From Candidatus Zixiibacteriota bacterium (lineage in GTDB: Bacteria; Zixibacteria; MSB-5A5; GN15; JACZUZ01), in NCBI GenBank assembly GCA_024280775.1, contig JAJRPM010000012.1, positions 124,001 through 188,000 of the forward strand: a stretch of DNA of 64,000 nucleotides, read 5' to 3'. The notes under the pieces are model-generated. The model did no database searches, was not told the DNA's origin, and worked only from the letters and a program-made list of their open reading frames with translations. A program made the position numbers and the translations under genes. Positions 58,467 to 62,947 of the stretch are shown one piece after another (the stretch's first letter is position 1; each line of letters starts with the position of its first letter).

Positions 58467-59501
58467 ATGACCGACAAACGCGAAGAAATTTCAGTTAAAC
58501 TAACCGCGCAGGTATCCTGCGCCGGTTGAGCTTCTAAACTCGGGCCAACGGTGTTGGCCGAAGCTCTTTCTAATCTAACCCAAAGCTCTCACCCTGATTT
58601 GCTGGTAGGCTTTAACAAGGCCGATGACGCAGGTGTGTTTCGGATTTCCGAAACACAGGCGCTTGTGCAGACGGTGGATTTCTTCACACCCATAGTCGAT
58701 GATCCGTTTTGGTTTGGAAAAATTGCCGCGGCCAATGCTCTCTCGGATGTTTATGCAATGGGTGGTACGCCTGTCACAGCGCTTAGCATTGTGTGTTTTC
58801 CCGAAGGAGAAATGCCGCCGGCTGTGCTTGCACAAATTCTTGCTGGCTCCGAAGAAACGGTCAATGAATCCGGCGCAGTGATTGTCGGCGGACATTCAGT
58901 CAAGGACAAAGAGCTGAAATACGGACTGTCTATCACCGGATTGATCAATCCCAAGAATCTAATTACCAACGCCGGAGCAAAGCCGGGCGATGTGCTTTAC
59001 CTAACCAAACCGCTTGGAACTGGAATCATCAGCACTGCCATCAAACATGACGCCTGCCCGGAAGAATTGATGCAACGCATCATGAAACAAATGGCAACAC
59101 TCAACAAAGAAGCCGCAGAACAAGCAGTCAGAATCGGCGCGCATGCAATGACTGATGTAACCGGTTTCGGATTCCTGGGTCATGCGCTGGAGATGGCAAA
59201 AGCCTCAAATGTCACTTTGGAAATAGACACCAACGCAATCCCGATTATCCCCGAAGCGCTGGACTTCGCCAAAGCCGGCTACCTAACCGGCGGGGCCAAG
59301 GACAACCAAAAGCACATAGGCTCCGCGCTGGAAATCAAAGGCGCCATAGACGAAAACATCCTACACACCCTCTACGACCCCCAAACCAGCGGCGGGTTAC
59401 TAGTAGCCGCGCCCGAGGGGTCAACAGTGGAACATGATTTTAGTAAGATCGGACGAGTACTCGCCAAGGAAAGCGACACTAAAAGTTTAGGATTGCACTA
59501 A
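58467..59501 (+). CDS. selD: Selenide, water dikinase (selenophosphate synthetase), selenocysteine-containing
   Basis: The enzyme that makes selenophosphate from selenide and ATP, the selenium donor for selenocysteine. Reading from the ATG, codon 21 is TGA (58527-58529) within TAQVSCAG-U-ASKLGP, exactly where SelD proteins carry their catalytic Cys or Sec. With the TGA read as Sec the protein has 344 residues, the normal length. Later marks are GFNKADDAGVFRI, TVDFFTPIVDDPFWFGKIAAANALSDVYAMG (ATP/Mg loops), GGHSVKD and DVTGFGFLGH. Standard gene finders would call it truncated from a GTG at 58551. It implies selA, selB and selC elsewhere in the genome. Confidence 0.95.
58527..58566 (+). promoter_or_regulatory. 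Bacterial SECIS element in selD
   Basis: Directly after the UGA, GAGCTTC (58528-58534) pairs with GAAGCTC (58560-58566). Inside, GGCCAA (58543-58548) pairs with TTGGCC (58554-58559), with loop CGGTG holding Gs near its start. An 8-base bulge lies on the left. The loop begins 19 bases after the UGA, within the distance bacterial SelB needs. It should recruit SelB and Sec-tRNA. Confidence 0.85.
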
Positions 59502-59563
59502 ATGTGATAGCGTGGCTATGTTAGGGTAGTATAGATTAGTCAGTCGCAAGAAGGAGACAGTAA

Positions 59564-60088
59564 ATGGAAAGACGACAATTATCATTGTACACTCTCATTT
59601 CGAAACTCGGAGATGGGAGATGGGACAAAAATGAGTTTGATAACAGGCTATTCATTCAAAAAGCAATTTATCTCGCTCAATTATTCGGATTCGACTTAAA
59701 ATATAGATTTAGTTGGTACAAGAGAGGACCGTATTCGCGGCTCGTGACCGCAGACGTATATGAAATATACGAGTCCGAAGAAGAGGAAAAGGTAGCACTG
59801 CCTATTAGAAAAGAGTATGAGAGTAGATTAGACGAACTAAAGAAACTCTTGGATTCCAAACCTGATTCGGTTAATAAACAGGAGGAGTGGTCTGAATTAC
59901 TAAGCTCAATTCATTATATCAAGCATATCTCAAAGCCTACCGCAAATATTACTTCAGATACTATTATGAGTGATTTACATGATTCTGGAAAATCTGGATT
60001 CGATGAATCTGCGGTCGATGAAGCATGGAATAAGCTTTCGGAAATTGGACTGATAGAAAACAAGGTATTGGCAAAACCCACCTCATAA
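59564..60088 (+). CDS. YwgA-like protein paired with an HD phosphohydrolase
   Basis: A 174-residue soluble protein. Its opening resembles B. subtilis YwgA: LYTLISKLGDGRWDKNEFDNRLFIQKAIYLAQLFGFDLKYRFSWYKRGPYSRLV, which looks like a winged-helix or Panacea-like fold with a Y-x-R-G-P-Y-S motif near 54-60. The middle is a charged coiled coil (75-110). It has AAGGAG seven bases before the start and is 13 bases from the HD gene. ywgA and ywfO (an HD protein) are neighbours in B. subtilis, so the pairing is old. It may regulate or sense for the HD enzyme. Codons are more AT-rich than those of selD or glyS. Confidence 0.7.
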   Translation: MERRQLSLYTLISKLGDGRWDKNEFDNRLFIQKAIYLAQLFGFDLKYRFSWYKRGPYSRLVTADVYEIYESEEEEKVALPIRKEYESRLDELKKLLDSKPDSVNKQEEWSELLSSIHYIKHISKPTANITSDTIMSDLHDSGKSGFDESAVDEAWNKLSEIGLIENKVLAKPTS

Positions 60089-60101
60089 CCACTATTTAAG
60101 C

Positions 60102-61586
60102 ATGTCGGTTGATTTCGAAGAAAAAACCATCTGTGATTCTGTTCATGGCACAATCGGTGTTTCCCAGCTAGAACTTGATGTAATTAATACTCGCACATTT
60201 CAGCGGCTACGAAAAATCAAACAACTAGGTTTTGCTCACTACGTATTTCCCGGAGCCGAGCATTCTAGGTTTTCCCATTCTATTGGTGTAATGCACTTGA
60301 TGTCTAGAATGGTTGATAGGTTGTTCAAAGACAATTGCACTCATGTTGATGATGGCAAGAAGAAGCAAACTCTCAGACTGGCGGCGCTGTTACATGACAT
60401 AGGACATTATCCAATATCTCATCTAGGTGAGCAAGCATTTCAGTGGTACAACAGTCTTGATGATAATGGAGATGATGGATTCGGTGATGACGGAAAAGCA
60501 TCTCCGAGTAAAGAAAGCGTGTTCCATTATTCAGGAAATCGCCACAAAAATGAAGACGTAAAACACGAGCGGCTTGGCCAAGTCATACTTGAAAACCCAA
60601 ATTCTGACCTTAACAAAATAATATCAAGTAGGAATTATGATGCAGCCAAAATCGCCAGAATCTTCAATGGAGAAGATTCTGGCAACCAGTTCCATGTACA
60701 GTTAATGAGTAGTACTTTAGATTGTGACCGCCTTGATTACCTCGTTAGAGACTCTCAACATTGCGGAGTACGGTACGGACTCGTTGATATTGACTACATT
60801 ATACAAAATATCCGTTGGAATGAACACAAGGAAAGAGTTTGCTTCAAGTCAAAAGCTATACATGCCTTAGAGCATTTTCTAACATCAAGATACCACTACT
60901 ACAACATTCCATATCACAAGACAGTTTGCGCATTCGAAACTATGGCAAAAGCATTGTATTTCGCAATGATGAAATGGCCTGAGTTTGACCCCAAACCAAC
61001 ACATGAGATCGTAAGTAAACTTAGTGAGATCAAGGATCGAATTAACAGTGATAGCGAATTTCTCGCAAATTTTACTGATGAGTATTTTTGGTACTACTTA
61101 GAGAGATGGAGTCCCCCCAACGAAATCCTGCACTCACTAAAAGATGACCTTTTGAATAGACGGCCAATAAGGGTTGTTACAGAAGAGAGAATATTGCTGT
61201 CTAAAAAAGGAGAGGGAGAGCGATTCAATTTTGTCAATAAACAGATTTGGAATGACAGTGAAATTGACAATCTCCTCACGGACAGCGGATTTACACGTAA
61301 CGAGTTAACACGAGTTGAAAAAACTATCAAATTTGAGGCAATTTCATCAACAATAGATTACCACGAAAGAGATGAGATTGACGAGGATGATGACAACGAG
61401 TTGATAAAAATCATCAGGGACGATGGTGAAGGGCTTGACGACTTGATTTCACTCCCACAGTCCATTATCCACCAACTAAGCAAATATGAGCAACATATTG
61501 TGCGACTTTACGCCATCGGACCGAAAGATAAGTGTGAATCTCTTAGAGCGAACCTAAATTCATTCATTTCTGAGCGAGTCCAATAA
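60102..61586 (+). CDS. HD-domain phosphohydrolase, SAMHD1/YwfO-like
   Basis: A 494-residue metal-dependent phosphohydrolase. The N-half follows the SAMHD1/YwfO pattern: ICDSVHGTI, TRTFQRLRKIKQLG, H59 in HSRFSHSIGV, H98-D99 in LLHDIGHYPISH, and the later Asp in STLDCDRLDYLVRD (207-212). All metal ligands are present. The family hydrolyses dNTPs or related nucleotides. The C-terminal 250 residues are a helical tail ending in an acidic DEIDEDDDNE patch. As the second gene after a YwgA-like protein it could serve nucleotide control or phage defence; that is inference. It is convergent with glyS. Confidence 0.85.
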   Translation: MSVDFEEKTICDSVHGTIGVSQLELDVINTRTFQRLRKIKQLGFAHYVFPGAEHSRFSHSIGVMHLMSRMVDRLFKDNCTHVDDGKKKQTLRLAALLHDIGHYPISHLGEQAFQWYNSLDDNGDDGFGDDGKASPSKESVFHYSGNRHKNEDVKHERLGQVILENPNSDLNKIISSRNYDAAKIARIFNGEDSGNQFHVQLMSSTLDCDRLDYLVRDSQHCGVRYGLVDIDYIIQNIRWNEHKERVCFKSKAIHALEHFLTSRYHYYNIPYHKTVCAFETMAKALYFAMMKWPEFDPKPTHEIVSKLSEIKDRINSDSEFLANFTDEYFWYYLERWSPPNEILHSLKDDLLNRRPIRVVTEERILLSKKGEGERFNFVNKQIWNDSEIDNLLTDSGFTRNELTRVEKTIKFEAISSTIDYHERDEIDEDDDNELIKIIRDDGEGLDDLISLPQSIIHQLSKYEQHIVRLYAIGPKDKCESLRANLNSFISERVQ

Positions 61587-61603
61587 CAACAAAGTCATTG
61601 TTC

Positions 61604-62947
61604 CTACCCAACCTTCTCAGCCAAGAACTCTCCAACTTTGTCCAGCGCCATTCTCGGGTTTTCCATGGTGTCTCTATCGCGCACTGTCACTGTTTGATCT
61701 TCTAGAGTTTGGCCGTCGACTGTGATACAGTACGGCGTACCGGCTTCGTCCATGCGAGCATAGCGCCTGCCAATCGCTCCGGCGTGATCGTAGAATACTT
61801 TGAATTTGCCTCTGAGTTCACGATAGAGCTTATCGGCTACTTCCGGCATACCGTCTTTCTTAACCAACGGCAATATCGCAGCCTTAATCGGCGCAATCTT
61901 CGGCGAGAGGCGTAAGAACACACGTGTGTCACCTTTGATTTCTACTTCGTCATAGCCATTCACCAAAACTGTCAGCAAGGTTCTATCACACCCCGCTGAA
62001 GTCTCGATTATGTACGGCAGGAATTTCTCGGTGAACCGCTCATCGAAATAGCGCATGTCCTTGCCGCTATGTTCCATGTGACGTGACAAATCGAAATCAG
62101 TGCGATTATGCACACCCTCAAGCTCCTGCCAGCCGAACGGAAACAAAAACTCGATGTCATACGCCGCCTTAGCATAATGCGCCAGGTCATCGGGACCATG
62201 TTCATGCCAGCGAAGTTTATCTTTATCCAGCCCCAGCTCAAGGTAGTAATTCATCCGCTGTTCCATCCAATACTCGAACCACTTCTGGTCTTCATCGGGA
62301 TGCACAAAGAACTGCATTTCCATTTGTTCAAATTCGCGGGTGCGGAAAATAAAATTACCCGGAGTGATTTCATTGCGGAAAGCCTTACCTATTTGCGCAA
62401 TGCCAAACGGAATCTTCTGACGTGAACTGTTCTTAACATTCAGGAAATTAACATAAATCCCTTGCGCGGTTTCCGGACGCAAATGAATCACCGCGCTTTC
62501 ATCCTCCAGCGGCCCCATGAAAGTCTTGAACATCAAATTAAAATTCCGCGCCTCGGTAAATTCACCGTCACATTGCAACGGAGTCTTCGACGGTTTCTTC
62601 ATACAGCGCGCATGTTCCAATTGATCGGCGCGATAGCGGCCTTTGCAAACTTTGCAATCAATCATCGGGTCGGTGAAATTCTCAATATGCCCCGAGGCCT
62701 CCCAGACTTTCGGGCTCATCAGAATCGAGGAGTCCAGCCCCTCGATGTCATCACGACGATTAGTCATCGTCTCCCACCAGAAAGTTTTGATATTACGTTT
62801 AAGCTCGGCGCCCAGCGGACCATAGTCCCAACAGGAGTTTAGGCCTCCGTAGATTTCTGAAGAAGGATAGACGTAACCCCGGCGCTTGCAAAGGGAAACA
62901 ATTTTCTCCATGCGATCATCTGTTTTTTTCTTAGCTGACTTGTTCAT
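61604..62947 (-). CDS. glyS: Glycyl-tRNA synthetase, dimeric type
   Basis: The class II enzyme that charges tRNA-Gly, 447 residues. Family marks: the class II motif 1 region CKRRGYVYPSSEIYGGLNSCWDYGPLG at the start, a zinc-type insert (CKVCKGRYRADQLEHARC), LRPETAQGIYVNFLNV, motif 2 FRNEITPGNFIFRTREFEQMEMQFF, and the C-terminal anticodon-binding domain. It is the alpha2 (eukaryote/archaea-like) type, not GlyQ/GlyS. The start follows GGAG at 11 bases, preceded by a repeat-rich spacer. Confidence 0.97.
   Translation of the reverse strand: MNKSAKKKTDDRMEKIVSLCKRRGYVYPSSEIYGGLNSCWDYGPLGAELKRNIKTFWWETMTNRRDDIEGLDSSILMSPKVWEASGHIENFTDPMIDCKVCKGRYRADQLEHARCMKKPSKTPLQCDGEFTEARNFNLMFKTFMGPLEDESAVIHLRPETAQGIYVNFLNVKNSSRQKIPFGIAQIGKAFRNEITPGNFIFRTREFEQMEMQFFVHPDEDQKWFEYWMEQRMNYYLELGLDKDKLRWHEHGPDDLAHYAKAAYDIEFLFPFGWQELEGVHNRTDFDLSRHMEHSGKDMRYFDERFTEKFLPYIIETSAGCDRTLLTVLVNGYDEVEIKGDTRVFLRLSPKIAPIKAAILPLVKKDGMPEVADKLYRELRGKFKVFYDHAGAIGRRYARMDEAGTPYCITVDGQTLEDQTVTVRDRDTMENPRMALDKVGEFLAEKVG

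Follow-up and report, generated by a model that had tools for sequence, protein, structure and literature searches.

A mobile gene pair joining a SAMHD1/EF1143-type HD protein to a DarG C-terminal-domain-like protein: a candidate guarded dNTP-depletion module

Depletion of dNTPs is an antiviral strategy common to animals and bacteria, and for only a few dNTP-depleting enzymes is it known how bacteria prevent them from doing harm. EF1143 and SAMHD1 hydrolyse dNTPs, and we know of no YwgA-like partner for either of them. In the Clover system, CloA is a dGTPase that defends against phage and becomes toxic when its partner CloB is missing (PMC12265719). In the DarTG system, the C-terminal domain of DarG alone counters the toxicity of DarT and binds DarT in E. 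coli (PMC7003065), and this domain occludes the active site of DarT (PMC11481870, citing Deep et al. 2023). A literature search of partial coverage, with little subscription literature, yielded no description of the gene pair reported here and no treatment of the function of ywfO or ywgA.

In this study, the window is the whole stretch of 64,000 nucleotides of Candidatus Zixiibacteriota DNA that was analysed. Two genes on the plus strand, 13 bases apart, lie in it between selD and glyS, as the first-pass annotation had stated; the names glyS and recO are presumptive, being assigned from sequence. The features of the locus are as follows.

58551-59501, plus strand: selD-named gene with AIRS domains, one flank of the pair
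59502..61603, no strand: variable selD-glyS site, holding the pair here and an Abi_C gene in G074 of the same genus
59564..60088, plus strand: small gene, 174 aa, YwgA/DarG-C-terminal-domain-like, proposed brake on the HD enzyme
60102..61586, plus strand: large gene, 494 aa, predicted SAMHD1/EF1143-type HD dNTP triphosphohydrolase, proposed effector
60276..60278, plus strand: metal ligand H59 (equivalent to EF1143 H66), from the alignment to EF1143, invariant in the rows covering it
60393..60398, plus strand: H98-D99, the HD motif, from the 19-row HD alignment and the ligand list in PMC8177086
60720..60722, plus strand: D207, the fourth metal ligand, invariant in the HD alignment
61604-62947, minus strand: glyS-named gene, the other flank of the pair

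The pair also differed from its surroundings in base and codon use, as had been claimed for it. The GC content was 38.1% in the small gene and 40.1% in the HD gene, against a mean of 47.6% (sd 2.6) for the 51 ORFs of the window, a set that includes the pair itself. The small gene ranked lowest in both GC and GC3, and the HD gene ranked second lowest in GC and third lowest in GC3. The fit to the codon usage of the window was poorest for the HD gene and second poorest for the small gene.

The 494-aa protein has an HD domain in Pfam. Its closest PDB sequence relatives were EF1143 (2o6i, 3e-36), BT4208 (2q14) and others, with SAMHD1 ranking after EF1143 and BT4208 (2e-22). The AlphaFold2 model, built with 15 sequences, had a pLDDT of 81.5, and very low confidence was confined to residues 121-147 and 371-375. 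Foldseek aligned the model with 4lrl, a structure of EF1143 with dGTP/dTTP, over 515 columns (E 3.2e-20, TM 0.68/0.74), and SAMHD1 structures ranked after it. Because the model aligns with the EF1143/SAMHD1 fold over its entire length, the C-terminus, which the first-pass annotation had taken for a long unknown domain, is a part of this fold. The protein shares the full-length fold and the metal ligands with EF1143 and SAMHD1, and differs from them in an insertion at about residues 121-150, where the model confidence is low.

The H...HD...D metal site is intact, and all the SAMHD1-like ligands named earlier are present. Residues H59, H98, D99 and D207 correspond to H66, H110, D111 and D183 of EF1143 in an alignment that allowed for the tag of the deposited chain, with the EF1143 ligands taken from PMC8177086. 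These residues were invariant wherever the 19-row HD alignment covered them. The protein does not qualify as a Dgt-type anti-phage dGTPase: the model NF041026 gave 22.5 bits against a cut-off of 400, and its match, like that of the PADLOC dGTPase model, was weak and lay at about residues 27-114. The Dgt-type structures of Clover also barely resemble it (PDB 9p8s/9p8t, E 0.098; 9p8w, 0.012). It has the HD superfamily in common with the anti-phage Dgt-type dGTPases but belongs to the SAMHD1/EF1143 branch instead. The allosteric site of SAMHD1, by a presumptive mapping, is partly kept in N29, Q34 and R37; the aspartate of this site is replaced by N29, at a position that varies in the family. Judged by the modelled fold and the ligands, the HD protein is a predicted full-length SAMHD1/EF1143-type dNTP triphosphohydrolase, and it probably destroys DNA building blocks.

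For the 174-aa small protein, no Pfam family lay above threshold. The PADLOC DarG model matched it, with residues 5-160 aligned to DarG 165-327 (E 2.7e-8), and the NCBIfam DarG model (E 3.2e-5, 23.4 bits against 250) aligned through the DarG C-terminal part only. A profile of 21 relatives had its best PDB match in 7YK3 chain B (E 4.6e-4), the DarG domain of the DarTG complex from M. tuberculosis. An AlphaFold2 model built with 18 sequences (pLDDT 90.4) had 7YK3 as its sole convincing Foldseek match (probability 1.00), the rest of the best 50 being at or below 0.15. VIA-align superposed 149 residues on 7YK3 at 3.0 Å (Z 13.3), with the next match at Z 5.3, and hhalign gave 98.8% against six DarG C-terminal domains. 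The profile, Foldseek, hhalign and VIA results agree in giving the small protein the fold of the toxin-binding C-terminal domain of DarG, which sequesters DarT. The N-terminal macrodomain/NADAR domain of DarG is absent from it, its 174 residues being aligned to the C-terminal part, and the adjoining gene encodes the dNTPase-like HD hydrolase in place of DarT. The predicted fold supports placing the small protein among inhibitors of partner proteins, one of the two roles (sensor or inhibitor) suggested earlier.

Mimicry of single-stranded DNA is attributed to DarG. The net charge of the small proteins had a median of +1 and was not consistently negative, so mimicry of this kind is not indicated here and was dropped as a candidate mechanism.

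The resemblance to YwgA proposed in the first-pass annotation was seen at profile level only: the small-protein alignment against a YwgA-like protein of P. megaterium gave 96.2% in hhalign (E 2.6e-9, 19% identity). We infer from its place that this protein is the YwgA orthologue. In P. megaterium, a YwfO-like HD gene is followed directly by the YwgA-like gene, near pta and ordinary genes, in a record that is labelled a plasmid yet holds chromosome-type genes. The genes ywfO and ywgA are presumably adjacent in B. subtilis as well. The P. megaterium genes encode remote relatives of both window proteins side by side, but their pair has the HD gene first, ordinary neighbours and low identity to the window pair. 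Like the window pair, Clover consists of two genes, for a dNTPase effector and a dedicated restraining partner, the restraint being proposed for the window pair. The partners differ, since CloB is a nucleotidyltransferase and the window partner, folded like the C-terminal domain of DarG, does not qualify as a CloB.

The small-protein queries led to 27 loci with the window included: 15 genome contigs, two distinct viral contigs, four genomes of its own order (the window's own among them) and six new genomes from scans of 392, 385 and 400 genomes. Excluded were L064, with the same listed ORFs as L063, L032, which its length and ORFs indicate to be on the same contig as L048, and a second G134 copy found through an HD query. 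An HD relative was adjacent at 23 of the 27 loci. These were 13 of the 15 genome contigs (12 downstream and one, L062, upstream), one of the two viral contigs, all four own-order genomes (G082 being judged by an HD start on the same contig) and five of the six new genomes (G830, and with the HD gene first G627, G1009, G1228 and G1082). The HD gene of G627 is seen only as a fragment at the contig end (Roseibium HD, E 5.6e-10), and that of G1228 is spread over two frames. The usual order is the small gene and then the HD gene, with a spacing from overlap to 27 bases in 15 pairs, and the HD gene comes first in five cases.

Four loci had no adjacent HD gene. The match in G502 is the DarG C-terminal domain of a DarT-DarG pair, whose DarT and macrodomain are presumptive names assigned from sequence; it was the sole match besides the centre among the 392 genomes from the phylum of G136, a Phycisphaeraceae bacterium. 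At L056, the small gene is close to a type IIG restriction-methylase. At the archaeal L061 (7764-8870), the small-domain protein has an extra N-terminal stretch and is followed by a 136-aa protein, which resembles nucleoside 2-deoxyribosyltransferases by eye and had no match in Pfam. On the viral contig L065 (5935-7165), a small DarG-CTD-like gene is followed by HicB-like and HicA genes, possibly another partner for this domain, and a DNA methylase with an Mrr-like domain lies upstream.

The trees of 18 small/HD pairs largely share clusters, with the phyla mixed and several forks weakly supported, and the clusters do not follow phyla. The patristic distances of the two proteins correlated (Spearman 0.71 for 18 pairs, a value that none of 3000 permutations reached, and 0.80 for the 11 pairs from other orders once two long rows were removed), both values being uncorrected for shared descent.

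Of 132 genomes in the phylum, those with a close HD relative were the window genome, G044, G084, G072 (part), G082 (split) and G015; G074, which belongs to the same genus as the window genome, lacked one. New carriers of the small protein were rare in the three scans, with six genomes, of which one is the DarTG case. The scan of genomes with the single HD protein as first query gave no match, and neither did the viral contigs scanned with the HD alignment. The genomes G015 and G016, of one genus, differ by 2173 extra bases in G015 that hold just the pair; the site in G016 is empty, and the flanks match at 93% and 85%. The identity to the window was 80% for glyS and 38% for the HD protein in G015, against 74% and 49% in G044, so the relatedness of the HD gene departs from that of the chromosome. 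On the same values, G015 and the window are unlikely to have inherited the pair vertically at the glyS site. By these comparisons the pair is rare and mobile and has crossed between phyla, and its occurrence is patchy, not uniform in core genomes.

In the window, G072 and G015, the 3′ side of glyS is occupied by the pair or its HD gene. In G074, the syntenic selD-glyS interval (selD 86%, glyS 94%) encodes a protein of 279 aa that scores above cut-off for Abi_C (PF14355, 4.6e-8; L141:5040-5879) and matched no PADLOC model. Directly 3′ of glyS in G044, whose own pair sits on a different contig, are matches to PADLOC PDC-M11A (1.4e-12) and PDC-M11B (6.3e-29), which are GNAT and ASCH proteins (L144:2910-5448). 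The glyS survey covered 24 chosen genomes, with all known carriers included; glyS was present in 23 and a usable 3′ flank in 21. The pair or its HD gene occupied three of these flanks, Abi_C or PDC-M11 genes two, and a gene for a sub-threshold restriction-like protein that of G076; the rest held other or unassigned genes. Among the 18 informative genomes without the pair at this site, 2 had defence genes there, with part of the neighbours scanned (the defence-model scan left out G019, G020, G051, G012, G064, G040 and G082). Gene content at the site varies, with at least two gains of defence-like genes apart from the pair, in counts that lack a background rate.

Two broken frames were also seen. 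The glyS frame of G076 is split by one in-frame TAG in the assembly (L137:1495-2814), which may reflect a sequencing error or recoding. The window genome holds another, distant HD relative, whose coding sequence is split between two frames that overlap (L002, G000 C5:290759-291073).

Across 14 pair loci, 97 neighbour proteins were compared with PADLOC models. These were part of 144 listed neighbour ORFs; L056, L061, L063 and L065 were viewed separately, in part. The matches were few and mostly generic (kinase, ATPase), and ordinary genes prevailed, so there is no general defence-island signal, and the enrichment near defence genes proposed as a check on the first-pass annotation was not found among these proteins. 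The rest of the window (48 proteins) gave generic PADLOC matches only and no defence signal. The earlier proposal of a defence module is supported in part, by the patchy and mobile occurrence and by a site that holds an abortive-infection gene or candidate defence genes in relatives, but not by the neighbours elsewhere, which are mostly ordinary.

At L063, genes for a DnaB-like helicase, a thymidylate synthase-like protein, a ParB/DNA methyltransferase and a terminase small subunit lie beside the pair, which is therefore present in at least one phage-like genome. The HD protein of L063 is 31-32% identical to that of the window, and the small protein 35%. The module appears to have been exchanged among bacteria, some archaea and at least one phage. 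The thymidylate synthase-like gene (L063:4200-5066), about 1 kb upstream of the pair, deserves mention because Clover senses dTTP.

HD proteins were also seen in other plasmid settings. A four-gene run common to rhizobial and Roseibium plasmids (L039:267-3886, L040:3647-7434, L041:3640-7431) encodes a radical SAM protein, a 3′-5′ exonuclease, an AAA ATPase and a SAMHD1-like HD protein. The run adjoins a DncV-like cyclase in L040 and ABC-three-component genes in L041, and it looks like an undescribed nucleotide-directed defence operon. A Desulfosarcina mobilizable plasmid (L046:4860-7280) encodes an 806-aa HD protein with a long C-terminal extension, and an integrase is nearby.

Our preferred reading is that the pair is a guarded dNTP-depletion module, which we hold to be about evenly poised between right and wrong. 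The pair would be a horizontally moving accessory module, in which the HD protein would hydrolyse dNTPs like EF1143 and SAMHD1 and be harmful if left unchecked. The small protein, which corresponds to the DarT-gripping domain of DarG in free-standing form, would bind the HD enzyme and hold it inactive. Phage infection or another disturbance of the cell would release or override this brake, the dNTP pools would fall, and the replication of phage DNA would stop, perhaps along with the host itself. Of this picture, the analysis establishes the pair, its folds, the intact active site, the partnership in two gene orders, the mobility and the sharing of a site with defence genes; that the proteins bind, and that there is inhibition, toxicity, a trigger and an effect on phages, is inferred. 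This reading is suggested by a dNTPase that would be toxic if free, a toxin-gripping fold, the mobility of the pair and its place among defence genes. Because the small protein is built like the toxin-restraining part of an antitoxin, the two genes probably make up a guarded anti-phage weapon, with a logic like that of Clover or of type II toxin-antitoxin systems and with other parts.

The main rival is housekeeping control of the dNTP pool, in which the small protein would regulate an ordinary cellular dNTPase allosterically and have no role against phages, B. subtilis YwfO/YwgA being the parent case; we regard it as rather unlikely. The P. megaterium pair, near pta and ordinary genes, suggests that a housekeeping branch exists, and most of the pair neighbourhoods (97 proteins, 14 loci) are ordinary. 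Bacterial dNTPases can serve the cell cycle, and the Caulobacter Dgt protein FssC had no effect on sensitivity to a phage, both according to PMC12186491. However, such control would fit poorly with a pair that is rare and patchy (six new genomes, one of them DarTG, in scans of 392, 385 and 400), missing from the same-genus G074 and from the empty site of G016, and present in a phage-like contig, and with a site shared with Abi_C and PDC-M11 genes.

It is improbable in our view that the substrate of the HD enzyme is some other nucleotide, for example a signal or a phage-modified dNTP, while the small protein senses a phage component. The asparagine N29 at the presumed place of the SAMHD1 allosteric aspartate, variable in the family, would be compatible with this. 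HD enzymes have diverse substrates (PMC8177086), but the whole fold, the metal ligands and the His/Glu positions match dNTPases. Control of type VI kind, in which the small protein would be an adaptor handing the HD enzyme over for proteolysis by a protease, in the manner of SocA and SocB, seems very improbable. SocA is a Panacea-domain adaptor (PMC8832971), and the conserved QK..Y..GPY core of the small protein looks Panacea-like by eye. Membership in Panacea was nevertheless rejected as unproven, with only 20% in hhalign against 16 Panacea proteins (13% for the DarG C-terminal domain), and PF13274 had no match in the small protein or anywhere in the window's genome; Panacea proteins are carried by 27 of 129 genomes of the phylum. 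The PanAs tested, moreover, needed neither ClpXP nor Lon (PMC8832971). Least credible is that the two genes are operon neighbours without physical interaction, in view of the adjacency at 23 of 27 loci, the two gene orders, the overlapping or close genes and the correlated trees.

At its widest, the guarded-module reading would amount to an undescribed form of immunity by dNTP depletion, which we put forward tentatively and rate somewhat short of an even chance. SAMHD1-type enzymes would be held by a stand-alone DarG-type domain in bacteria and archaea, in hosts and phages; the B. subtilis pair YwfO/YwgA would be a branch that has settled, and DarG a form in which this domain is joined to a macrodomain. 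If this is true, the domain with which DarTG grips its toxin would also restrain a SAMHD1-type enzyme, and the long uncharacterised YwgA family would gain a testable function. The logic of toxin-antitoxin systems would then be linked with SAMHD1-like immunity.
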